Source: Devosia algicola (GTDB taxonomy: Bacteria > Pseudomonadota > Alphaproteobacteria > Rhizobiales > Devosiaceae). From it: a stretch of 64,000 nt of DNA. Positions 4,834-43,992 of this stretch are shown one piece after another. Position 1 is the first letter of the stretch. Each line of letters starts with the position of its first letter. The notes under the pieces were generated by a model, which ran no database searches, was not told where the DNA came from, and worked only from the letters and a program-made list of their open reading frames with translations. The DNA lies in contig NZ_CP118246.1 in the NCBI RefSeq assembly GCF_028816455.1, positions 1,364,001 through 1,428,000 of the forward strand, written 5' to 3'. Both the position numbers and the translations under genes were made by a program.

Positions 4834-6248
4834 GATGCCTCCTGCCCCAAAATTGCGGCTAGTTCGTCCGGCAGCGCGTTGGCCCATTGCGTGATATTGC
4901 CCGCGCCGAGGCAGACGACATAGTCGCCGTCCTCGGCGCGGCTGGCAATGAGTGGCGCCAGCGCCTCGGGGCGATCTATCACCCGCGCGTCGCGGTGGCC
5001 TCGTGCCCGAATGCGATTGACCAGTTCTTCATGGGTAACCCCCGGGATCGGGCTTTCACCCGCCGCATAGATCGGTGCTACGATGACCGTATCCGCATCG
5101 TTGAAGCAGGCAGAAAAATCGTCAAACAGATCCTGCAGGCGCGAATAGCGATGCGGTTGGACGACCGCAATTACATCGCGCCGTGCCGACTGCCGCGCCG
5201 CGTGCAAAACCGACGATATCTCGACCGGGTGGTGCCCATAATCATCTATGATCGTAATACCGTTGACCTCACCGGTCTTGGTGAAGCGGCGCTTGACACC
5301 AGAAAAGCCCTTTAGCCCTTTTCGGATCGCCTCGGCCGGCACATGCAACTGATCTGCCACCGCGATGGCTGCAACCGCGTTGAGTGCATTATGCTCGCCC
5401 GGCATCGGCAGTTCCAGACCTTCGATACGAAGCTGAGTTTGCCGGATCTGATCGCGAATTTCGACCGAAAAAGTGCTGATGCCATTGATGTTTTCGAGTT
5501 CAACCAGCCGCACATCCGCTTGCGGGTTGCGCCCATAGGTAATCACCCGGCGGTCGCGAATTTGTCCGACCAGCGCCTGCACTTCGGGATGGTCAAGGCA
5601 CATCACGGCAAAGCCGTAAAACGGCACGTTCTCAACGAAATTGACAAATGCCTTCTTGACCCCCTCAAAATCCTTGTAGTGGTCGAGATGCTCAGGGTCC
5701 ATGTTGGTGACGACCACAACGTCAGCGGGCAATTTCACAAATGTGCCATCGCTTTCATCCGCTTCCACCACCATCCATTCCCCGTCACCCAAGCGTGCAT
5801 TGGTGCCATAGGCATTGATGATGCCGCCATTAATGACTGTGGGGTCAAGGTCACCGGCATCCAGTAGCGTCGCAACCAGCGTTGTGGTTGTGGTTTTGCC
5901 ATGCGTGCCGCCTATGGCAATGGCGTTTTTGAAGCGCATGATCTCGGCCAGCATTTCGGCCCGACGCACCACCGGCAGGGCGCGCTGGCGCGCCGCGACC
6001 AGTTCGGGATTGTCCTTCTGGATCGCCGACGACACCACTACGACGGTGGCCTCGCCCAGATTGTCGGCATGTTGACCAATCTCGACGCGGATGCCCATGT
6101 TGCGCAGGCGTTGCACATTGGGATTGGCGGCAGCGTCTGACCCCTGCACCACATAACCCTGGTTGTGCAGGATTTCGGCAATGCCACTCATGCCGATGCC
6201 GCCTATGCCGACAAAGTGGACAGGTCCGATATTGCGCGGCATTTTCAT
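4830..6248 (-). CDS. murC: UDP-N-acetylmuramate--L-alanine ligase
   Basis: First amino-acid ligase of the stem peptide, adding L-Ala to UDP-MurNAc using ATP. The N-terminal domain has the Rossmann-like [18 protein letters not shown], the ATP-binding loop is [11 protein letters not shown] near residue 113, the substrate region is EADESDGTF, and the C-terminal domain has [12 protein letters not shown] near residue 335. 472 aa is normal. Both ends are translationally coupled by ATGA overlaps, to murG upstream and murB downstream. Confidence 0.96.
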
Positions 6249-7360
6249 TGTGCGTTACCCAGTTTTGCGTTCTTCAAGTTGGCCATTTCCTCGGCCACAT
6301 CTGCCAGTTTTTCAACCGCAAGCGGTTGGCCAAGCGATTTGGCCGCTACGGCAGCCGCGGCCAGAATATTCGGGTCGGCAAGCAGATTAGCCAGGCGCGT
6401 GCCCAATGAAAGCGGCGAAAGCGAGGCTTGTTCAACAATCCAGCCTCCACCGGCCGCCTCCAATACCAATGCGTTTTGTTTCTGGTCACCATCGATGGCA
6501 CTGGGCAACGGCACCATGATTGCGGGACGACCCAACACACCAAGCTCCGTAATGGTTGATGCCCCCGAGCGCGCCACCACCAGATGAGCACCGGCAATGC
6601 GCTCCGGCAGATTATCAAAAAACGCCGCCAGCTCGACATTGACCTTTGCCTGCCGATAGACCTCGGCCACCCGGTCGAGATCCTCGGCCCGGCATTGCTG
6701 TACGATATGCAGTCTATGGCATAAATCTTCCGGCATCCGCGCAACGGCTGCGGGCACGATATCGGAGAATATTCGCGCGCCCTGGCTACCCCCGAATATC
6801 ACCAGCCTGATAGGGCCATTATTGGAAATAGCCGGATATGGTGTGTCCGCAATATCGCGCACCCGATCCCGAACAGGATTGCCGGTAATCACCTTCTGAA
6901 GGCGCATTGCCTGAGCGTGGGTTGTCTTCTCAAAACTGAGTGCCAGTCGGTTCGCAAACCGGCAAAGCGCGCGATTGGCGCGCCCCAGAACCGCATTCTG
7001 TTCATGCAGGACACCGGGTATGCCAAGCAGGCTCGCGGCCACGAATGGCGGAAACGTCGGATAGCCTCCAAACCCCACCACGGCGTCGGGCTTGATCTCA
7101 CGCAGTTTTCGCAGCGCCACGCCGATCCCGCCCAATATCTTGAAGCCCCCCCCAATAAATTTGACCGGATTATTGAGCGATGGCGTTGCCGCCGGCACCA
7201 CGTGAATGCGCCGCGCCGGAAAGTCGGCACCATAGCTTTCCACCCGATGATCCGTCATCAGATCGACCACGTGTCCGCGACGACGCAGTTCCTGCGCCAG
7301 AGCCATCGCCGGGAATAAGTGGCCGCCGGTGCCCCCCGCCATTAAAACAAATGTGCTCAT
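6245..7360 (-). CDS. murG: lipid II synthase MurG (undecaprenyl-PP-MurNAc-pentapeptide GlcNAc transferase)
   Basis: GT-B glycosyltransferase at the inner face of the membrane, adding GlcNAc to lipid I to form lipid II. The N-terminal glycine loop [16 protein letters not shown] and the second loop [13 protein letters not shown] are present. The linker motif [12 protein letters not shown] lies near residue 190 and the UDP-GlcNAc site [13 protein letters not shown] with [14 protein letters not shown] near residue 270. 371 aa. ATGA overlap with ftsW upstream and with murC downstream. Confidence 0.96.
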
Positions 7361-8515
7361 TCGGCAGGCGCCACCGCGCTGCGATAGGCAGGAATGCCCG
7401 TAACCAGTCGCTCCTCGGGTTTGGAGCGTGTCAACGCCAGCATCAACCCCATCCCCAGCGCAATCGCGATCATCGACGTACCGCCATAGCTCACAAATGG
7501 TAACGTCATGCCCTTGGGAGGAATGAGATTGAGATTAACCGCCAGATTGATACCGGACTGCAGGCCAAACTGAATCGCCAATGTCGATGCCGCAAGTCGC
7601 GGAAAAAGATTGGTCTGACGCTGCGCGCCAGCCAGTCCACGCACCGCAATGAAGGCAATCAAACCCACAAGCACCAGGCAGAACAAGATGCCGAACTCCC
7701 CTGCTGCCGCAGAAAACACATAGTCGGCGTGGGCGTCGGGAATAAGCTTCTTTGCAACCGATTCACCCGGCCCCCGTCCGAACCACCCCCTCAAGCAACG
7801 ACTGCAGTGCCCGATCAATCTGGTAGGTGTTGCCACCCCCTTCGGGGTTCATGAAAGCATCAATGCGTTTGCTCACATGTGGAAACAACAAATAAGCCCC
7901 AAAGATCAATCCAACGCCGGCCCCCGCTAACCCGAAAATCAACCACCAGGAAATTCCGGCGAGAAACAGCAATGCGCCCCAGGTAGCCAGGATAAGCGCG
8001 GTTTGGCCAATATCAGGCTGCAACAGCAGGCCCCCGACAATCGCCGCGCCAACTAGGGTCGCCAGCGTTTTTCCCGGCACATTTTTTCGAACCATGCTCT
8101 CGGAGAACAACCACGCGCCCAATACGGCAAATGCCGGTTTGACAAATTCTGAAGGTTGAACGGTTTGTCCCATAATTGAAATCCAGCGTCGCGCGCCCTT
8201 GACCTCGGTGCCAAATTTGAGCGTTGCCCAAAGCATGGCCAGGGAACCAATCAGCGTAACCAGCGCCACCACCCGCGCCTGCCGCGGTGACAGGAATGAT
8301 GCACCGACCAGTACCACCAGCGCGGGAACGCAAAAGCCAGCCTGGCGAATGACAAAATGCCATGGCTCCAACCCCAATCGTTCTGCCACCGGCGGGCTGG
8401 CCGCGAAGCTGAGCACAACCCCACAAATCATCAACAGGATCAGTGCGCCCAACAGTTCGCGGTCGATAGACCACCACCATTCGGCAATAGGGGTTTTTTG
8501 TGCCCGTGAAAACAT
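7357..8515 (-). CDS. ftsW: SEDS peptidoglycan polymerase FtsW (frameshifted)
   Basis: Septal glycosyltransferase of the SEDS family, partner of FtsI. The first 245 codons give many membrane helices and the conserved KGARRWISI, QPSEFVKPA and QPDIGQTALI regions, ending at RALQSLLEG. The second part in another frame starts at GWFGRGPGESVAKKLIPDAH and runs to the normal C-terminus with GGTSMIAIALGMGLML. The break falls in a run of five C on the plus strand (7786-7790). Either one base too many or two too few restores LLEG(G)WFG; the family GGWFG favours two lost bases. Repaired length is about 386 aa. Coupled to murG by ATGA. Confidence 0.92.
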
Positions 8516-31679: not shown

Positions 31680-32009
31680 TTATTCGGCGATGAGGCCCGC
31701 TTCCTGACACTGCTCAAGAGTCACAGTATCAAGGTCAATTGTGGTGGTAACCTGCTCGAGTTCGTTGACCTCTTCAGCGTCTTCCACATTCGCAGCAGAA
31801 CCGCCGGCCGTGCTATCGGTGCCCATGGCATCGCTTTCGGTGGCCGATGTGTCAGAAGCTAATGCAAGCTGATCACAACGCTGCTGAACTGCTGGAAGAT
31901 CGGCCTCCATTACAGTTGTGCTGCCAATCATTGTTTCAGCATAAGCCGAACCACCAAGAAGCATTGCAGAAGAAAGAGCGATAGCGGAAGCAATGGTTTT
32001 GATATTCAT
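31680..32009 (-). CDS. small acidic secreted protein of unknown function
   Basis: 109 aa. The start MNIKTIASAIALSS at 32009 has GAGAGGA eight bases upstream. A Sec signal peptide (about residues 1-23, cut after GGSAYA) is followed by an acidic mature part with many Asp, Glu, Ser and Thr and two cysteines, in QQRCDQLA and LEQCQEAGL, that could form a disulphide. It has its own strong terminator. No family recognised; small exported Cys-pair proteins with this layout are common in Devosia-like and other Rhizobiales genomes. Confidence 0.75.
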   Translation of the reverse strand: MNIKTIASAIALSSAMLLGGSAYAETMIGSTTVMEADLPAVQQRCDQLALASDTSATESDAMGTDSTAGGSAANVEDAEEVNELEQVTTTIDLDTVTLEQCQEAGLIAE

Positions 32010-32095
32010 TTTAGAATCCTCTCTGTATTTCAAATTTTTACTGACGCAACATTTGCGGCTCGGATATACAACGTCACCAATCGGAATTCGTTGCC

Positions 32096-32938
32096 TTGAA
32101 AAATTCGACTAAAGAAATCGTGAACAAGTCCAACCCAGTCGCGATGCAACGGGCATGGGGACAAGGTCGTGTTGCCACCCAGTTCGGCTCGCGCGGCACC
32201 CGCCTGCTTTCCCTTTATCAGGACGGGTGTGCAAAAATTCGTTTGCCCAATACCCATAGTCAGGCCTTGGAGGCGGTTCTGATCAACACCGCAGGCGGTC
32301 TGACGGGCGGTGATAATATGCAATGGAGCGCCCACGCGGCCCCCAACAGCCAGCTGGTTCTGACGACGCAGGCTTGTGAGCGGATCTATAAGTCAACCGG
32401 TGACGTCGCCCGGGTCGACACTCAACTGATCGCTGAGGAAAACGCCCATATCGATTGGCTCCCTCAGGAAACCATCCTTTTTGACGCCAGCAAGCTGAGG
32501 CGCGCCATCAACATAGATCTCGCCCAAGGTGCAACGCTAACCGCCGTCGAGGCTGTCCTGCTCGGTCGCGACGCCATGGGCGAGGACGCTCGCAACGCCC
32601 AACTGACCGATCAGTGGCGTGTCCGGCGCAATGGACGGCTGATCCATGCCGAGGCAACTCAACTCGGCGGCACCTCAACGGAGCGTGACGGAATGTCCCT
32701 GCTCGCCGGCACGCGTGCCTTCGCAACAATCCTGCGGATTGCGCCCGATGCTGTTGCCCGTCTCGACACTATCCGTAGTCTGCTGCCCGACGATGCCAAA
32801 ATTGCCGCCAGTGCCATCGGCGACCGCCTGATCATCCGGGCTCTGGCGCCCAACGGGTTGGCCTTGCGGCGCCTGATTGTTCCACTTATTGCTCAATTAT
32901 CGGGCGGCGGTACCCTGCCCCGGCTTTGGCATACCTAG
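32096..32938 (+). CDS. ureD: urease accessory protein UreD
   Basis: Scaffold that binds apo-urease and, with UreF and UreG, delivers nickel. 280 aa with the family segments AVLINTAGGLTGGD near residue 60, LTTQACERIYKS, ETILFDASKLRR and LLGRDAMGE. The start is uncertain: TTG at 32096, GTG at 32120 (KSNPVAMQRAWGQG) and ATG at 32144 are all possible and none has a strong ribosome site. First gene of the urease operon. Confidence 0.93.
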   Translation: MKNSTKEIVNKSNPVAMQRAWGQGRVATQFGSRGTRLLSLYQDGCAKIRLPNTHSQALEAVLINTAGGLTGGDNMQWSAHAAPNSQLVLTTQACERIYKSTGDVARVDTQLIAEENAHIDWLPQETILFDASKLRRAINIDLAQGATLTAVEAVLLGRDAMGEDARNAQLTDQWRVRRNGRLIHAEATQLGGTSTERDGMSLLAGTRAFATILRIAPDAVARLDTIRSLLPDDAKIAASAIGDRLIIRALAPNGLALRRLIVPLIAQLSGGGTLPRLWHT

Positions 32939-32947
32939 GAAGCAGAC

Positions 32948-33250
32948 ATGAACCTTACCCCTCGCGAAAAAGACAAGCTGCTGATTTCAATGGCCGCGAT
33001 GGTAGCGCGCAAACGTCTCGAGCGCGGCCTCAAGCTGAACCATCCTGAGGCCATCGCGCTGATCACCGATTTTGTCGTCGAAGGGGCCCGCGACGGTCGC
33101 CCGGTCGCCGAACTGATGGAAGCGGGCGCCCATGTCATTAGTCGTACCCACGTTATGGATGGCATAGCGGAGATGATCCACGATATTCAGGTGGAAGCCA
33201 CGTTCCCCGACGGCACCAAGTTGGTCACCGTCCACGAACCCATCCGCTAA
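32948..33250 (+). CDS. ureA: urease subunit gamma
   Basis: 100 aa, full length. [20 protein letters not shown] at the start and [10 protein letters not shown], then [18 protein letters not shown] at the end, are the hallmark of UreA. Separate gamma and beta genes are the normal bacterial arrangement. Ten bases after ureD. Confidence 0.98.
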
Positions 33251-33259
33251 GGAAACACC

Positions 33260-33574
33260 ATGATCCCCGGTGAAATCGTGACCAAATCCGGCAGCATCGA
33301 GCTTAATGCCGGTGCACCAACCCTTACCATAGAAGTGGCCAACGCCGGTGATCGTCCGATACAGATCGGCTCGCACTATCATTTCTTTGAAGCCAACACC
33401 GGTCTGCGCTTTGATCGTGAAGCAACGCGCGGCATGCGTCTCGATATCGCCGCCGGTACCGCCGTCCGCTTCGAGCCCGGCCAAACGCGCGAGGTAACGC
33501 TGGTGGCCATTGGCGGCAGCCGCACCCTTTATGGTTTCAGGCAACTGGTCATGGGCACGGTGGACAAGGCGTGA
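33260..33574 (+). CDS. ureB: urease subunit beta
   Basis: 104 aa. [18 protein letters not shown] at the start, the conserved [12 protein letters not shown] near residue 38 and the C-terminal GFRQLVMG region identify UreB. It starts nine bases after ureA with AAGGA upstream. Confidence 0.98.
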
Positions 33575-33680: not shown

Positions 33681-34076
33681 TTGACCAAAGAACAGGATTT
33701 CAAACAGCGCCTTGCGACCGTGCTTCAAGATTTGCAGGAAAGTGGGGTCAAGGATCAGGCCGCAATGGAATTGCTTGGCAGTCTCGCACTCGATCTGTCG
33801 GGCAACCTTCGCGCCGTAAACTGGAGCCAGGCCAAAAAATTGATCACCACGCCAACCTATTCCACCTTGCTCGAAAAATTCGAGCAGGAAGGTAATGAGC
33901 ACCACCAGGCCGGGCGCGAAAAGCACGCCTACGCTATTCAGGCGCTGGCCATTTCGTTGATCGCAGGCACCATGCGCGCCGACCCGGTCATCCGTCAGGG
34001 CGAAATATTGCTCGATACAATAATTGACGCTGCGGTAGCCGCCTACCGGCGCCTGCATGGCGCCGCCACACACTAG
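33681..34076 (+). CDS. hypothetical protein inside the urease operon
   Basis: 131 aa between ureB and ureC. The start is TTG at 33681, supported by AGGAG seven bases upstream. No signal peptide or clear membrane helix. Predicted mostly helical, with amphipathic N-terminal half (residues 1-60) and a more hydrophobic stretch around residues 88-100 (QALAISLIAGTM). I do not recognise a family. Its position between structural subunits suggests co-expression with urease; a role in assembly is possible but unsupported. Confidence 0.65.
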   Translation: MTKEQDFKQRLATVLQDLQESGVKDQAAMELLGSLALDLSGNLRAVNWSQAKKLITTPTYSTLLEKFEQEGNEHHQAGREKHAYAIQALAISLIAGTMRADPVIRQGEILLDTIIDAAVAAYRRLHGAATH

Positions 34077-34112
34077 TCCGGACCATCTGTCCGCATAACG
34101 AGGAATTTGCTC

Positions 34113-35822
34113 ATGCCCGCACAGATTTCCCGCGCCGCCTATGCTGACATGTACGGACCGACCACTGGCGACAGGGTGAGATTGGCCGATACCGATCTAT
34201 TCATTGAGGTGGAGCAGGACTTCACCATCTATGGCGAGGAGGTCAAATTCGGTGGTGGCAAGGTAATCCGCGACGGTATGGGGCAATCACAAAGAACGCG
34301 GGCCGAAGGTGCGGTCGACACTGTCATCACCAATGCGCTGATCGTCGACGCGACCGGCATTTACAAAGCCGACATCGGCCTCAAGAATGGTCGCATCGAG
34401 GCCATAGGCAAGGCGGGCAATCCAGACACCCAACCTGGCGTTACCGTCATCATCGGCCCCTCGACCGAGGCCATAGCCGGTGAAGGCAAGATCGTCACCG
34501 CCGGAGCCATGGACGCCCATATCCACTTCATTTGTCCCCAACAGATCGAAGAAGCCCTGATGAGCGGCGTCACCACCATGCTGGGCGGCGGCAGTGGCCC
34601 TGCTCATGGCACTTTGGCGACAACCTGCACTGGCGCCTGGCACATAGGCCGCATGATCGAAAGTTTTGATGCATTCCCGATGAATTTGGCCTTGGCAGGC
34701 AAGGGCAATGCGTCCCTGCCCGCGCCGTTGGTTGAAATGGTACTGGCGGGCGCCTCTTGCCTCAAATTGCATGAGGATTGGGGTACCACCCCCGCCGCCA
34801 TCGACAACTGCCTGTCGGTGGCGGATGACTATGACGTTCAGGTGATGATCCATACCGACACCCTCAACGAAAGCGGCTTTGTTGAAGATACTATCGCCGA
34901 CTTCAAGGGTCGTACCATTCACGCCTACCACACAGAAGGCGCCGGCGGCGGTCACGCCCCCGATATCCTGCGCGTCGCAAGCCTGCCCAATGTCATTCCC
35001 TCCTCGACCAATCCTACCCGCCCCTACACTGCCAACACAATTGCCGAGCATCTCGACATGCTCATGGTTTGCCATCATCTGTCCTCGTCCATTCCCGAGG
35101 ACGTTGCTTTTGCCGAAAGCCGCATCCGGCGCGAGACCATCGCCGCCGAGGACATTCTTCACGACATGGGCACGCTCTCGATCATATCCTCGGACAGTCA
35201 GGCCATGGGCCGGGTTGGCGAAGTGCTGATCCGCACCTGGCAAACCGCCGACAAGATGAAAAAGCAGCGCGGCGCACTCGCCGAAGAGACGGGCAACAAC
35301 GACAATTTCCGCGTCAAACGCTACATCGCCAAATACACCATCAATCCCGCCATTACCCATGGCATGAGTCAGCACATCGGTTCGGTCGAGGTGGGCAAGC
35401 GTGCCGACCTTGTGCTCTGGAGCCCGGCGTTTTTCGGCGTCAAACCCGAAATGGTCCTGCTCGGTGGCTCCATTGCGGCGGCACCAATGGGTGACCCCAA
35501 CGCGTCCATTCCAACACCACAGCCCATGCACTATCGCCCGATGTTCGGCGCTTTTGGCAAGCTGCGTACCAATTCATCGGTCACCTTCATATCCCAGGCC
35601 GCCCATGATGATGGCCTGCGCGCCAGATTGGGCGTCGACAAACAATTGCTACCCGTCACCAATACGCGTGCCGACATTGGCAAGGCCGCCATGATCCACA
35701 ATGCCGCCACGCCCGACATTGATGTTGATCCCGAAACCTACGAGGTGCGTGCCGATGGCGAGCTGCTGACGTGCGAACCAGCGACCGAACTGCCAATGGC
35801 GCAACGCTACTTCCTGTTTTAG
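34113..35822 (+). CDS. ureC: urease subunit alpha (catalytic)
   Basis: Di-nickel amidohydrolase that hydrolyses urea to ammonia and carbamate. The start [20 protein letters not shown] at 34113 has AGGA eight bases upstream. Nickel ligands are in place: H136 and H138 in DAHIHF, carbamylated K218 in [10 protein letters not shown]247 in IHTDT, H273 in AYHTEG and D361 in SSDSQAMG. The flap cysteine C320 and H321-H322 are in [13 protein letters not shown]. 569 aa, full length, so the urease should be active. Confidence 0.98.
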
Positions 35823-35896
35823 TTCGGCCCCATTTCACCGGCAGTACTGGCATCGCAAGGACGACTGCGCTAACTTTGTCCAAACAGGAGACAGCC

Positions 35897-36193
35897 GTGA
35901 TTTACGTGGTCGCCACGCTGCAGATTGAGTTGGGCGCATTGGAACCCTTCGTCGACGCCGCCTGCCCCTGCATCGAGGCAACCCGTGCCGAACCCGGATG
36001 CGTTCACTACGATTTGTGCGCAAGCGTTACCGACCCCGAACGGGTGGTGTTCATTGAACGCTGGGAAAGTCGCGAAGCCTTAAACACTCACCTTGCCAGC
36101 CCGCATATGCTGGCATTCAAAGCCGCCAGCAAACCGTTTGTCAGAGCATCCAAAATCGAGATCGTCCATTCCGAGCAAGTTGAAAAGATTTAA
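35897..36193 (+). CDS. antibiotic biosynthesis monooxygenase (ABM) domain protein
   Basis: 98 aa from a GTG start at 35897 with AGGAG seven bases upstream. It has the dimeric ferredoxin-like ABM pattern: VVATLQIE strand, EATRAEPGCVHYDLC, and VVFIERWESREALNTHLASPHM. Family members act as small cofactor-free monooxygenases or quinol-metabolising proteins; the substrate is unknown. Placed between ureC and ureE, which is not a usual urease neighbour. Confidence 0.85.
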   Translation: MIYVVATLQIELGALEPFVDAACPCIEATRAEPGCVHYDLCASVTDPERVVFIERWESREALNTHLASPHMLAFKAASKPFVRASKIEIVHSEQVEKI

Positions 36194-36224
36194 CGCCCTG
36201 TCCCACCTGACCGTGAGAATTGCC

Positions 36225-36608
36225 ATGCACCTCAATGCCCTTGTCGCCGCTGCCATTTTGCTGGCCATGACCGCGCCAGCAACGCTGGCTCTGGAAGCCA
36301 AAATCACCTTGGAGCTTGACATCGACGGCACTGGCACTGCCGAGCAGCGGGTCGTTCAATATGCATGCGACAAGGGTGAACCATTCAAGGTGACCTATAT
36401 CAACGCCGCCCCCAATTATCTCGCCATGATGCCGGTAAACGGTGATCAGGTGCTGATGCGCGAAGTGCTGTCGGCGTCCGGCGCCAAATATGTCGCAGAC
36501 GTTTGGGTTTGGTGGACCAAGGGCGATGAGGCCCAGCTTTATGATTTGCGCGACGGACCCGACGCCGCCCCCATTGATGCCTGCTACACCGTCACCGACG
36601 CGCCCTGA
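36225..36608 (+). CDS. MliC-family C-type lysozyme inhibitor
   Basis: 127 aa. The start MHLNALVAAAILLAM at 36225 begins a signal peptide cleaved near ATLALEA. The mature part has the MliC pattern: YACDKGEPFKVTYINA, LAMMPVNGDQVLM, LSASGAKYV and VWVWWTKGDEAQLYD, with a C-terminal cysteine that can pair with the one in YACDKG. Members protect the periplasmic wall from host lysozyme. It lies inside the urease operon, before ureE. Confidence 0.82.
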   Translation: MHLNALVAAAILLAMTAPATLALEAKITLELDIDGTGTAEQRVVQYACDKGEPFKVTYINAAPNYLAMMPVNGDQVLMREVLSASGAKYVADVWVWWTKGDEAQLYDLRDGPDAAPIDACYTVTDAP

Positions 36609-36702
36609 TCCAATGTCGCTTTTCTAACCCGGTGCTATCGGTCGCTCCGGCTTCGGGGTAGATAGCCACAGATCCCAAAAGGGTTCATTTTCAGGAGTGT
36701 CA

Positions 36703-37164
36703 ATGCACCGCGCCACTGATTACCTGCCGCCCGGACACGGAAAGTCGGCGACCGACCAGATTTCGCTTGTCGCCGACGAGCGCCGCCTTCGCCGCAAACT
36801 GTTGCGGACGTCAGCAGGCGACGCGGTGCTCGTCGACTTTGCGCAAACCCTGACGCTCGAACATAACGGCGCTCTGCTGCTTGAAAACGCGACAATCGTT
36901 GAAATTGTCGCGGCACCTGAATTGCTCCATCAGGTCACGGCCCGCGACCCAGCACATCTCGTGCAATTGGCTTGGCACATCGGCAATCGCCATACCGCCG
37001 CGCAGCTGGAACAATCGCGAATCCTAATCAAGCGCGATCATGTACTCAAAGCCATGCTGGAAGGCCTTGGCGCCGAGATCACCGGCATCAATGAGCCGTT
37101 TTTTCCGGTGCACGGCGCCTATCATGCCCATGCTGGCGCGCGCCACGCGCTGCATGCCCAATGA
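36703..37164 (+). CDS. ureE: urease accessory protein UreE (nickel metallochaperone)
   Basis: 153 aa from ATG 36703 with AGGAG five bases upstream. N-terminal UreE domain with LRRKLLRTSAGDAVLVDFAQ, then the nickel-binding C-terminal domain with LVQLAWHIGNRHTAAQ near residue 92. The tail (PVHGAYHAHAGARHALHA) has five histidines, a modest His-rich end. Coupled to ureF by ATGA. Confidence 0.95.
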   Translation: MHRATDYLPPGHGKSATDQISLVADERRLRRKLLRTSAGDAVLVDFAQTLTLEHNGALLLENATIVEIVAAPELLHQVTARDPAHLVQLAWHIGNRHTAAQLEQSRILIKRDHVLKAMLEGLGAEITGINEPFFPVHGAYHAHAGARHALHAQ

Positions 37165-37824
37165 CCAGCACCGCCGACGTGCAAAAGCTCATGACCTGGC
37201 TTTCCCCTGCGTTTCCTGTCGGTGCATTTGCATGGTCTGCAGGCCTCGAAACCGCTATCGCCACCAATCAGGTGTATGACACAGCGTCGACACAAAACTG
37301 GATTGAGGGCATTTTGCGTCATGGCGGCATAAAAACTGACGCCATCATATTGCGCTACGCCATTGGGGCCTACGACGACCCCAGCCAGGCTCCGTCAATT
37401 GGCTGATCTATGTCTGGCGTTGGTGCCCGCGAGGGAACGCCACGAGGAGTCAGTCGCCTTGGGCGACGCCTTTGTCCTTGCGGCCAGAACATGGCCGACA
37501 GTCGCGCCACCCCGCCTGCCGAGCCCCTGCCCCTACCCGGTTGCAGTTGGCGCTTTCGCAGGTGCTCACAATATTGCCGTCGAACCAGCCATCTCAGCCT
37601 TTCTGACCGCCGCGGTGCACGGCCAGATTTCTGTGGCCGTGCGGCTCATACCCATCGGGCAGTCAGACGGCCTATCAATTCTCGTCGCGCTCGAGCCGAC
37701 AATTGCCAACCGTACCGTCAAAATATTGACCGCCGACCTTGCGGATATTGGTAGCATCGCCTACGCCGCCGATATCGCCCAGATGCGTCACGAAACCTTG
37801 TCTACGAGAATTTTCAGATCATGA
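37161..37824 (+). CDS. ureF: urease accessory protein UreF (frameshifted)
   Basis: GTPase-activating partner of UreG. The first 76 codons carry [21 protein letters not shown] and [14 protein letters not shown]. One extra base in CAG[G]CT (37388/89) then shifts the frame; removing it joins YDDPSQ to [20 protein letters not shown] and on to the usual C-terminus with [21 protein letters not shown]. The repaired length is about 220 aa, normal. ATGA overlaps at both ends. Confidence 0.92.
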
Positions 37825-38252
37825 GCATGATGATTGCCGCCCTGATGTTTGTTCCACTGCTGGCAGTAGCGCTCGCGCACTTGCTCTGGTCCATGGGGCG
37901 AACCTGGCCCATTCGGGATGAAAAACTCTTGGCTCAAACTGTCACTGGCTTTGAAAATGTTGAACGCATGCCACCCAAACTGGCATCGCTTGCCGTCGCC
38001 ATTATCACCATGGCGTCCGGAATCGCTGCATTGTCCTTGGCCGATCACGATAGTGGCGGCGTCTGGCTGACCTTGCTTGGCGTGCCGCTGGCCGCTGTGT
38101 TCATTACCCGTGGCGCCATCGGCTATACAAAACGCTGGGCCGACAAAACACCTCACCTCAGCTTTCGCTACAATGATCGGCGCGTCTATTCTCCGCTTTG
38201 CCTGCTCTTGGGCGCCGGCTTTGTCGCCTTGACCATATTGAGGTTGCTATGA
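37821..38252 (+). CDS. DUF3995 membrane protein
   Basis: 143 aa with four predicted membrane segments (about residues 3-22, 50-72, 78-98 and 122-142). It shows the DUF3995 pattern: an early His in [12 protein letters not shown], a central Pro-rich loop and a C-terminal [14 protein letters not shown]. Function unknown. It is coupled by ATGA overlaps to ureF upstream and ureG downstream, so it is translated as part of the urease operon. A link to nickel or urea handling is conceivable but not shown. Confidence 0.75.
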
Positions 38253-38881
38253 AGTCCCCGAACGGTCCCTTGCGTGTTGGCATCGGCGGCCCTGTCGGTT
38301 CGGGCAAGACCACCCTTTGCGAGATGCTGCTCAAGGGCCTGCGTGACCGTTACTCCATGGCCGTCGTCACCAACGATATTTATACCCGTGAGGATGCTCT
38401 CATCCTGGCGCGTGCCCAGGCGATTGCCGAAGACCGGATTGTCGGCGTTGAAACAGGCGGCTGCCCCCATACCGCGATCCGAGAAGACGCATCGTTGAAC
38501 TTGGCGGCCATTGCCGATTTGAACAGGAAATTTCCCGATCTCGATCTGGTGTTGATCGAATCCGGCGGTGACAATCTGGCCGCGACCTTTTCCCCCGACC
38601 TTGCCGACATTACCATCTACGTGATCTCGGTAGCACAGGGCGAAAAAATCCCCCGCAAGGGCGGACCCGCGATCACTAGGTCCGACCTGCTCATCGTCAG
38701 CCACACTGACCTCGCGCCCTATGTCCACGCCGATCTTGATGTCATGCGCAGCGATACCGAACGGGCCCGCGCGGGTCGCCCCTACGTGTTTGGCAACATG
38801 CTGCAGCGCGAAAATCTCGATCAGATCATCGCCTTCATTGAAACCACCGGTGGATTGACCACCACCCGCGCCGCCGAATAG
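38249..38881 (+). CDS. ureG: urease accessory GTPase UreG
   Basis: SIMIBI GTPase powering nickel insertion. The start [14 protein letters not shown] at 38249 overlaps the previous stop. P-loop [15 protein letters not shown] near residue 14, the metal-binding CPH in [14 protein letters not shown] near residue 66, Walker B region [15 protein letters not shown] near residue 97 and guanine specificity in SHTDLAP are visible. 210 aa. It ends only seven bases from the convergent glgX stop. Confidence 0.97.
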
Positions 38882-38888
38882 GCATGGA

Positions 38889-40906
38889 TCACTGTTCGTC
38901 GGCGTCCGACCGCCGAACCAGTGCCAGCACGGATCGTGCGGGTAACTCAATGGCGCCATCCGAAACCGCAACAGCGTCACCGACGTTAGATTGCAGGCCA
39001 ACTACCCAATCGCCGTCGGGTAGTTGCGTCGACCGGTTCTCGGCCCGTCGATTGAACCACACCAGAACCTCGTCATCCTTGGTGCGCAGTTGCATGCCGA
39101 CGGTTGACGCGTGCTCATCGCCCCAATCATGATCGCTCATTTCGCGGCCATCCGGGTGCAGCCAAACAACATCGCGCACGCCCGCTCTGATTTTTCCAGT
39201 CAGGAAATGGTCGTGCACAAGCGCCTTGTGTTGCTTGCGAAAGCGATCAAGCGCTGCAACAAAATCCACCAGGCTCACCGTCCGCGTTTTCCCAATCGAC
39301 CCAGCTTATGTCGTTGTCCTGCGCATAGGCGTTGTTATTTCCTCCCTGCGTTCGATACATCTCGTCGCCCTGCTGGATCAGCGGGATGCCGCGCGACATG
39401 AACAGCGTGGCCAGCAGCGCCCGTACGTCGCGCCGCCGATTGGCGTTGATGGTTTCGTCATCTGTTTCGCCTTCCACGCCACAATTCCAAGATGAATTAT
39501 GACTGTGCCCATCACGATTGTCTTCGCCGTTGGCCTCATTATGCTTGTCGTTGTAACTGACTAGATCCCGCAACGTGAAACCGTCATGCACGGCCAACAG
39601 GTTGACGCCATGACTCGGCTTCCGCCCGCCATGATTGAAAACGTCCGCCGATCCAGTCACCTTCCCGGCAAGTGCCCCGATCTTGTGTGCATCCCCGCGC
39701 CAGAAACTGCGCACTTCATCGCGATAGGTGTCATTCCACTCGCGAAACTCATCGCCGAAATGACCCAACTGATACCCGCCAGGACCTGGGTCCCAGGGTT
39801 CGGCAACCAGCAGTGCCTTCGATAGCACCGGGTCGGCCTTGATCTTTCGCAACAGAACCGCATCCGGATTGAACCCCGGTTCACGCCCCAACACCGGCGC
39901 CAGATCGAACCGGAACCCGGAAACGCCCATCTCCTCAATCCAATATTTGAGGCTTTCAATCACCAGCCGCTGCGTTGCCGGATGGTCGCAGCGCAGCGTA
40001 TTGCCAGTGCCGGAATCATTGACCAAATGCTGTTTTCCGTCAGCTTCGACAAACCGATAGTAGGTTTTGGCATCCAGCCCCATCATGCTGAGCAGCGGGC
40101 CGTTCGCGTCGCCCTCGCCGGTGTGGTTGTAGACCACATCCAAAATCACCGAAATGCCGTGTTTACGGTAAAGGTCGGTCATATGCCGCAGTTCCTGCGG
40201 TCCGCGTGGCATCAGGCGGGGATCGGGCGCAAAATAGACTCACCGGATTGTAGCCCCAGGCATTGGTCAGTCCCAGGCTGGGCAAATGCCCATCATCGAT
40301 CCAGGCTGCAATCGGCATTAATTCGACCGTATCGACACCCAGATAAAGCAAATGATCGATCACCCGTTGGGTGGTAAGCCCCGCCACCGTGCCACGCAAT
40401 GGACCCTGTACGCTGGGATGACGCATGGTAAACCCGCGCACATTCAATTCATACATCAGGCTTGGTGTCTTGCTGCGCGGCTTGATCGGCTTGTAGCCGC
40501 CGCCCTGCACTATTGCCTTCGGGATCAGGGGCGACGTATCCAGTGCCTCTTCCCGTGGTAACCGTAGCTTCGGCGAGCGCACAAATACTCGATCCAGCCG
40601 CTTGGCATAGGGATCAACCAGCAACTTGGCCGGATCGAAAAAATATCCCTGATCAGGCTCATAGTGACCGTCGGCGCGAAACCCGTACCGCGCGCCCGCC
40701 CCAAGCCCCGCAATTTGAACCGCGTGGATATTGTCTTGATGTACGTCGAACTCTATTCGCGCGGTCTGCCTGTCCTGCTCGTCGTAAATCGAAACCCAAA
40801 GTGCCGACGCGCTTTCCGAATAAACAGCAAAATTAACACCCTCGTCGGTAATCGTGGCGCCGAGATTTTCGGTGCTTCCCCCATTGGGGATAAGCGAATT
40901 GCTCAT
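38889..40906 (-). CDS. glgX: glycogen debranching enzyme GlgX (two frameshifts)
   Basis: GH13 isoamylase-type enzyme that removes short branches from phosphorylase-limit glycogen. The start MSNSLIPNGGSTENLGA at 40906 has AGGAG at spacing five. An N-terminal CBM48 part (NFAVYSESASALWVSIYDEQ) precedes the catalytic barrel with GFRFDLAPVLGRE (nucleophile Asp), LLVAEPWDPGPGGYQ (acid Glu) and VAVHDGFTL. Two extra bases in AG[N]CT, at plus 40238 (GYNPVS to YFAPDPRL) and 39272/73 (NADGE to LVDFVAALDRF), split it into three pieces. The repaired length is about 671 aa. It is the last gene of the glycogen operon. Confidence 0.92.
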
Positions 40907-40919
40907 TGTGCTCCTGAAT

Positions 40920-43992
<3,073 letters not shown>

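Follow-up and report, generated by a model that had tools for sequence, protein, structure and literature searches.

The bacterial urease operon is described as the gene row ureDABCEFG, and genes unrelated to urease are reportedly found within such rows: the Rhizobium meliloti urease cluster of Miksch et al. 1994 is said to hold extra non-urease open reading frames (ORFs) between the urease genes. Here we describe a urease operon of Devosia algicola that lies in a stretch of 64,000 nucleotides (contig NZ_CP118246.1, positions 1,364,001 to 1,428,000), which we call the window. All seven urease genes are present in the window in the same order as in the described operon, but four non-urease genes occupy three of the gaps and ureF is frameshifted, so that the row reads ureD-A-B-orf131-C-ABM-MliC-E-F-DUF3995-G. 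The likeness to the rhizobial clusters is that non-urease ORFs stand between urease genes; two loci of family f23 (L153, L164) have DUF3995 in the ureF-ureG gap and an insert that we call p195 between ureC and ureE. In contrast to those clusters, the Devosia set adds orf131 and MliC, and it exists without urease in some species. A published comparison of 27 strains reports ureA, ureB, ureC and accessory genes in all compared genomes with a conserved operon organization, and the available part of its text does not mention inserts (PMC6981132); some Devosia genomes of our larger and different set lack urease. The open-licence literature that we searched yielded no description of inserts in the Devosia urease operon, and the term DUF3995 was not found there.

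We propose, with a probability of about 0.62, that orf131, MliC and DUF3995 belong to a resident, envelope-type gene set that has its own function and shares an operon with urease. Two sets would be interleaved at one Devosia site: the urease genes ureDABCEFG and the resident row orf131-(ABM, DUF4126, TPR-methyltransferase and SDR, all optional)-MliC-(p195)-DUF3995. Both are probably read as one transcript, and the sharing may serve co-expression. The function of the resident set would not need urease, would most likely lie at the cell envelope, and would be kept upon the loss of urease. Its products would be an exported MliC-fold protein, the membrane-type DUF3995 and p195 proteins, and the soluble helical product of orf131.

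The evidence for this proposal begins with how widely the inserts recur. An earlier note on this DNA had stated that insertions unique to this strain would speak against its reading; they are not unique, as they recur in related genomes. DUF3995 is found in 71 of 75 Devosia genomes (E <= 1e-10; in broken pieces in one, G447), orf131 in 70 of 75 (E <= 1e-6) and urease alpha in 69 of 75 (E <= 1e-9, broken pieces counted); only so many first-look candidates are scored in each genome, so that an absence may be a miss. Two of the genomes without DUF3995, G448 and G449 (91% and 90% complete), also lack orf131 and ureC, and the other two, G451 and G457 (55% and 74% complete), have both. Judged by coordinates, 59 of the 71 DUF3995-bearing genomes carry ureC on the same contig and no more than 7 kb away; in 4, whose assemblies are split or fragmentary, ureF and ureG adjoin DUF3995, and 8 have no urease genes at the site.

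A first survey showed where the inserts sit. Urease-alpha matches above the cut-off were present in 52 of 61 genomes, some merely weak and amidohydrolase-like, and 53 stretches were fetched around the stronger ones; 35 Devosia genomes among these stretches, the window's included, have an unbroken ureC match. In 31 of these 35 loci DUF3995 occupies the ureF-ureG gap, and MliC is also present in 31. The four without DUF3995 are one locus split between contigs (L036) and three compact operons (L039, L066, L068). The window's orf131 protein as query recovered 30 loci, and a second query added L031. Further inserts that are absent from the window occur in other operons, namely p195 (which has no Pfam family), UreJ/HupE, DUF4126, TPR-methyltransferase and SDR. 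ABM is itself a variable insert, present in a minority of the fetched Devosia operons and also found between ureC and ureE in L075, from another family. We also considered whether the inserts are chance ORFs, and rejected this: 30 orf131, 31 MliC and 31 DUF3995 sequences, the window's included, stand at the same operon positions.

The eight loci that hold the inserts without urease are central to our argument. They belong to G010, G012 (D. submarina), G013 (D. faecipullorum), G015 (a D. ginsengisoli metagenome-assembled genome, MAG), G020 (D. oryzisoli), G426 (a Devosia MAG), G433 (D. naphthalenivorans) and G453, and their order is orf131-(DUF4126-ABM)-MliC-(p195)-DUF3995, with p195 in five. 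The site is the same as that of the interleaved operons. A debranching-enzyme-like gene, which we take to be glgX-like, lies downstream of most interleaved loci and of all eight urease-less ones, and a gene for a small protein, found by tblastn, precedes many interleaved loci and five of the eight (the contig of G426 starts just before orf131, so that its upstream side is outside view). Five of these genomes (G010, G012, G015, G426, G433) have a compact urease operon elsewhere, in every case without orf131, MliC and DUF3995. G015 additionally holds, beside its compact operon L066, a second and degraded one on contig 15 (L083), with broken ureD, ureA and ureC. As for the other three genomes, ureC survives only as pieces in G020 and was not found in G013 or G453. 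Allophanate hydrolase, which we used to mark the other urea route, was sought in 11 genomes and exceeded the cut-off in one, G426; G013, G453, G020 and the window genome have no such match above it, and weaker amidase-type matches occur in all 11.

Because orf131, MliC and DUF3995 are kept at the site without urease genes in 8 of 75 genomes, they are unlikely to be dedicated urease factors. The earlier note had guessed at just such roles, with DUF3995 as a membrane partner in nickel or ammonia handling and the 131-residue protein as an assembly factor. Retention of the inserts in those eight genomes, reached by at least five changes, tells against these guesses, as do the five compact operons that do without all three genes and the ratios of nonsynonymous to synonymous change (dN/dS) of 0.08-0.36 for the set in urease-less pairs (0.51 with a frame-broken orf131). 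HupE/UreJ (PF04955) offers a useful comparison, as it is presumably the one insert whose family is known for nickel handling. Like the other inserts it sits within the operon, in the ureA-ureB gap of many Devosia operons, and it is in or near four of the five compact ones; unlike orf131, MliC and DUF3995, it is absent from the window operon and was not seen in the seven urease-less loci that reach far enough upstream.

To place the changes on a phylogeny, we used a tree that combines the DUF3995, orf131, MliC and debranching-enzyme sequences of 60 loci, built by a quick method and with several rows half empty. The urease-less state requires at least five changes on this tree, all of them forced by starred branches, and only 1 of 500 shuffles was as low; by their resident proteins, the urease-less loci do not form one group. 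The two outgroup loci, from other genera of the family, are interleaved, which makes loss the simpler direction of change. In G013 (E 1e-9) and G020 (E 4e-12), a remnant of the C-terminal part of ureF abuts DUF3995 on its upstream side, so that in these two urease was lost in place while the inserts stayed. G020 retains further remnants of ureB (3e-4) and ureG (7e-5). The same search on reversed sequences gave one match, at E 0.009, and we treated a match in G012 at 0.006 as chance. The compact operons may be either ancestral or gained later. The UreC tree, also built by a quick method and with an outgroup that is not one clade, places the compact ureC genes in groups that do not follow the tree of the resident locus (SH-aLRT about 80-95), a placement compatible, with modest support, with horizontal gain of the compact operons.

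We next asked how the set evolves where urease has gone, using Nei-Gojobori dN/dS ratios. For the urease-less pairs G012/G433, G010/G015 and G013/G453, in that order, the ratios are 0.13, 0.09 and 0.27 for DUF3995, 0.08, 0.18 and 0.22 for MliC, and 0.09, 0.51 and 0.20 for orf131, the 0.51 involving the frame-broken G010 copy; p195 gives 0.09 in G010/G015 and 0.36 in G013/G453. In seven urease-bearing pairs the ranges are 0.10-0.25 for DUF3995, 0.12-0.26 for MliC, 0.05-0.26 for orf131 and, in six pairs, 0.04-0.33 for p195. These values show that purifying selection on the set persists in the three urease-less pairs, and reading it as selection after the loss assumes that the loss predates the split of each pair. 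For G012/G433 and G010/G015, which encode urease elsewhere, a role in trans could also explain the selection; the third pair, G013/G453, has no urease.

In the window, the urease operon is identified by Pfam or NCBIfam matches for ureD, ureA, ureB, ureC, ureE and ureG, and by position and alignment for ureF. The features of the site are as follows.

31680..32012, minus strand: small protein with a signal-like N-terminus (judged by eye), the upstream flank marker of the site (tblastn)
32096..32938, plus strand: ureD, start codon uncertain (PF01774, E 1e-46)
32948..33250, plus strand: ureA, urease gamma (PF00547, E 1.1e-46)
33260..33574, plus strand: ureB, urease beta (PF00699, E 7.2e-45)
33681..34076, plus strand: orf131, helical protein of no recognized family, TTG start (alignment and AlphaFold2 model)
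34113..35822, plus strand: ureC, urease alpha (TIGR01792, E 1.6e-293)
35897..36193, plus strand: ABM-domain protein (PF03992, E 2e-21)
36225..36608, plus strand: MliC-domain protein (PF09864, E 1.9e-18)
36703..37164, plus strand: ureE (PF05194, E 5.3e-24)
37161..37824, plus strand: ureF, frameshifted in this assembly (position and alignment with the nearest relative)
37821..38252, plus strand: DUF3995 protein with four long hydrophobic helices (PF13160, E 7e-17)
38249..38881, plus strand: ureG (TIGR00101, E 1.8e-92)
39247..41056, minus strand: debranching-enzyme-like gene in two overlapping frames, the downstream flank marker

The four non-urease ORFs lie at the positions that the earlier note had given, and its claim that they are tightly coupled to urease stands for one of them. 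DUF3995 overlaps ureF and ureG by 4 bases each, with ATGA on both sides; the other three inserts are 31-106 bp from their neighbors (ureB-orf131 106 bp, orf131-ureC 36, ureC-ABM 74, ABM-MliC 31, MliC-ureE 94). The overlaps in the window are ureE/ureF, ureF/DUF3995 and DUF3995/ureG only, and the remaining gaps of the operon are 9-106 bp. The ureG start at 38249 is in register with relatives, and a TTG at 38198 is a mechanical ORF start only. We measured the coupling across distinct Devosia-type loci, which include a few MAGs with broader names and exclude the frame-broken L131. The 4-base overlap with ureF is present in 54 of 54 loci, in agreement with the coupling seen in the window, and that with ureG in 26 of 56; in the others the two genes are 10-20 bp apart (27 loci) or 1, 138 and 212 bp apart (one locus each). 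On our reading, the shared stop and start codons couple DUF3995 translationally to ureF and, in the window, to ureG as well.

Pfam bears out the ABM, MliC and DUF3995 identities that had been read from the letters alone, and for the 131-residue protein Pfam and NCBIfam indeed give nothing at E <= 1. An alignment of 30 orf131 sequences (mean column identity 53%) gave a best E of 0.011, and the AlphaFold2 model has six helices (pLDDT 87.8). Against the PDB, the best sequence match of orf131 had E 0.11, the best Foldseek match E 0.32 and the best second-look match, to a designed protein, Z 7.9; none of the fold matches was usable. The ABM protein scores 76.4 bits against a PF03992 cut-off of 23.1, and is a putative enzyme.

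The MliC-domain protein scores 66.7 bits against a gathering score of 22, all 31 aligned sequences match the family (E <= 0.001), and the protein matches the solved chains 3f6z (E 4.5e-27), which we take to be P. aeruginosa MliC, and YdhA 2f09 (E 7.1e-8). According to the available part of one report, E. coli YdhA is MliC and the family has a cysteine pair (PMC2267010), and the available part of another gives SxSGAxY and YxxxTKG as motifs of the MliC/PliC inhibitors of c-type lysozymes (PMC6033465). The window protein shares with these inhibitors the Pfam domain, both invariant cysteines and the SxSGAxY motif. It differs in having no lipobox cysteine behind its signal-like N-terminus, as judged by eye (signal peptides and membrane topology were judged in this way throughout), and in its second motif, which reads WVWWTKG with tryptophan in place of tyrosine and is SHQG or similar in many other sequences. 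Lysozyme inhibition is therefore no more than a possibility, given how many of the sequences depart from the published form of this second binding motif.

DUF3995 matches PF13160 over its full length (62.5 bits against a cut-off of 34.3; profile positions 1-124 of 124), and its AlphaFold2 model has four long helices (pLDDT 90.2), with 36 invariant columns in 31 sequences. With a limit of E <= 1 the only matches were DUF3995 and, below its threshold, DUF6232, and there was none to HupE/UreJ PF04955. The best Foldseek match against the PDB is an IgE receptor chain (E 1.8). Three human VKOR entries are among the fold matches (Z 7.9, root-mean-square deviation 3.3-3.6, 102-106 aligned residues), with an unrelated tetraspanin above them at 9.2. 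VKOR-type oxidoreductases typically carry a CXXC redox motif; the window protein lacks it, having the single cysteine C127, and we regard a kinship with VKOR as unsupported, the resemblance being within noise. Of 20 positions conserved (>=90%) in 15 DUF3995 sequences from the ureF-ureG slot, 14 are kept in >=75% of 13 non-slot sequences and 6 in 62-69%. The urease-linked copies are therefore unmarked, as the positions conserved in the slot are largely kept outside it.

Outside Devosia, orf131 and DUF3995 differ in range. Matches to orf131 occur in 15 of 397 genomes of the order, in Devosia, two other genera of the family and, weakly, a single genome from another family; plasmids searched with orf131 gave no match. 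DUF3995 is present in 36 of the 397, 24 of them outside Devosia, and in 10 of 385 genomes of the class, the window's included. We inspected 15 of the 24 (14 stretches and L143). The order ureF-DUF3995-ureG is found in seven: L143 and L152 (f1), L153 and L164 (f23), L157 (f2), L161 (f30) and L162 (f21). In L151, some 8 kb separate DUF3995 from the urease genes, which are on the opposite strand, and six (L154, L155, L156, L159, L160, L163) have no urease match near it. At class level, three of the nine loci besides the window, all from other orders (L172, L173, L174), have the slot, and the other six have no urease gene within about 1.5 kb. Outside Devosia, all seven loci that were measured offer a start that would give the 4-base overlap with ureF; in L162 this is one of four possible starts. 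In sister-genus loci L165, L166, L167 and L169, where an Amidohydro_1 search served only to locate ureC, MliC is in the ureC-ureE gap and orf131 and DUF3995 are absent. The urease loci from 13 genomes belonging to other families gave no DUF3995 match, some of these loci being cut by contig ends.

Further observations concern loci outside Devosia. L158 (G396) has the row ABM-ureE-DUF3995-UreJ at 5718-8149, with no ureA, ureB, ureC, ureF or ureG match within the 13 kb stretch. In L159 (G183, another family), an LprI-like gene, a gene for a small membrane-type protein and DUF3995 are consecutive at 5501-6884, with no urease match nearby. An LprI-type gene lies in the ureB-ureC gap of four operons from other families (L045, L071, L073, L076), Pfam being positive in both of the two that were run. 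With MliC in Devosia's family, two unrelated lysozyme-inhibitor families thus occur inside urease operons.

Several observations weigh against an independent resident set. The strongest is the order ureF-DUF3995-ureG, which recurs in several families and in other orders with the 4-base start overlap possible in 7 of 7; this would be odd for a mere passenger, and DUF3995 may have a urease-linked role in some lineages. Urease is encoded elsewhere in 5 of the 8 separated genomes, where a role in trans is possible, and among the genomes searched there is no reasonably complete Devosia genome with urease but without DUF3995. The G010 orf131 is broken in two frames, the G013/G453 ratios for DUF3995 (0.27) and p195 (0.36) are slightly above the urease-bearing range (the flank gene is also highest in this pair), and the synonymous differences of G012/G433 are near saturation (pS 0.66-0.73). 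Finally, the envelope function would rest on domains and on topology as judged by eye. The first of these points, together with the overlap in all 54 Devosia-type loci, speaks for DUF3995, and perhaps orf131, as a true urease accessory, for instance a membrane anchor or channel that works with the UreF-UreG maturation complex. We consider this unlikely, since DUF3995 persists in G013, G453 and G020, none of which has an intact urease, is missing in cis from the five compact Devosia ureases and is missing, with orf131, from the four sister-genus ureases; the lack of DUF3995 matches in the 13 other-family genomes and of urease-specific residues in the protein point the same way. That the genes are neutral passengers, small genes caught in the operon and slowly lost, is highly improbable. 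The variation of ABM, DUF4126, SDR and TPR-methyltransferase between species and the broken G010 orf131 would fit such a history, but orf131, MliC and DUF3995 are near-universal in Devosia, show purifying selection in the pairs whose site has no urease, and have held their order even though several separate intervals lost their urease genes.

Those same intervals raise a question about how the urease-less state arose. Instead of decay in place, an un-interleaved allele could have spread among Devosia by recombination at the shared flanks, which would account for the same order and flanks in distant species where otherwise several urease intervals must have been removed separately. As a general account this seems a little less likely still than the accessory role, because the remnants establish that G013 and G020 lost urease in place, and because the urease-less loci are not united by their resident proteins; replacement of this kind is possible for the other lineages. 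A further idea, that the set shields the envelope from ammonia or high pH of any source, is a special form of the resident-set proposal and does not exclude it. Membrane-type and exported products beside an alkalinizing enzyme, and the second, unrelated lysozyme-inhibitor family LprI in the ureB-ureC gap of other operons, are in its favor; this support is indirect, and the LprI count has no genome-wide background and so makes no statement on enrichment. We hold this form only tentatively. It is likewise speculative, to a similar degree, that the set is an undescribed alphaproteobacterial envelope-protection module that is threaded gene by gene through the urease operon, made together with the alkalinizing enzyme and selected without urease too.

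Returning to the resident set itself, a conserved operon position is routinely taken as evidence of a shared pathway, whereas here urease left several times and the inserts stayed. Devosia therefore lends itself to testing how far function can be predicted from operon membership, and the locus offers a way into three unexplained families, DUF3995, orf131 and p195. The locus also carries a warning that DUF3995 is not to be named a urease accessory from its ureF-ureG position alone.

The frameshift in the window's ureF deserves a separate comment. One frame stops at 37406 and another continues to 37824; compared with the nearest relative, in which ureF is in one frame, the alignment has one extra base. 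The frameshift may be either a sequencing error or a mutation. Sequencing indels are plausible because the debranching-enzyme gene is also in two frames and the completeness of the genome (G000; 3.6 Mb, 91.4%) is low for a single contig. In the nearest relative listed, D. rhodophyticola (L065, G019), whose DUF3995 is 85% identical to that of the window, ureC is split in two frames and completeness is 93%, which may point to assembly indels. In G018 (L036, L096), the operon lies on two contigs as ureD-A-B-orf131-C and DUF4126-MliC-p195-E-F-DUF3995-G, by rearrangement or assembly error.

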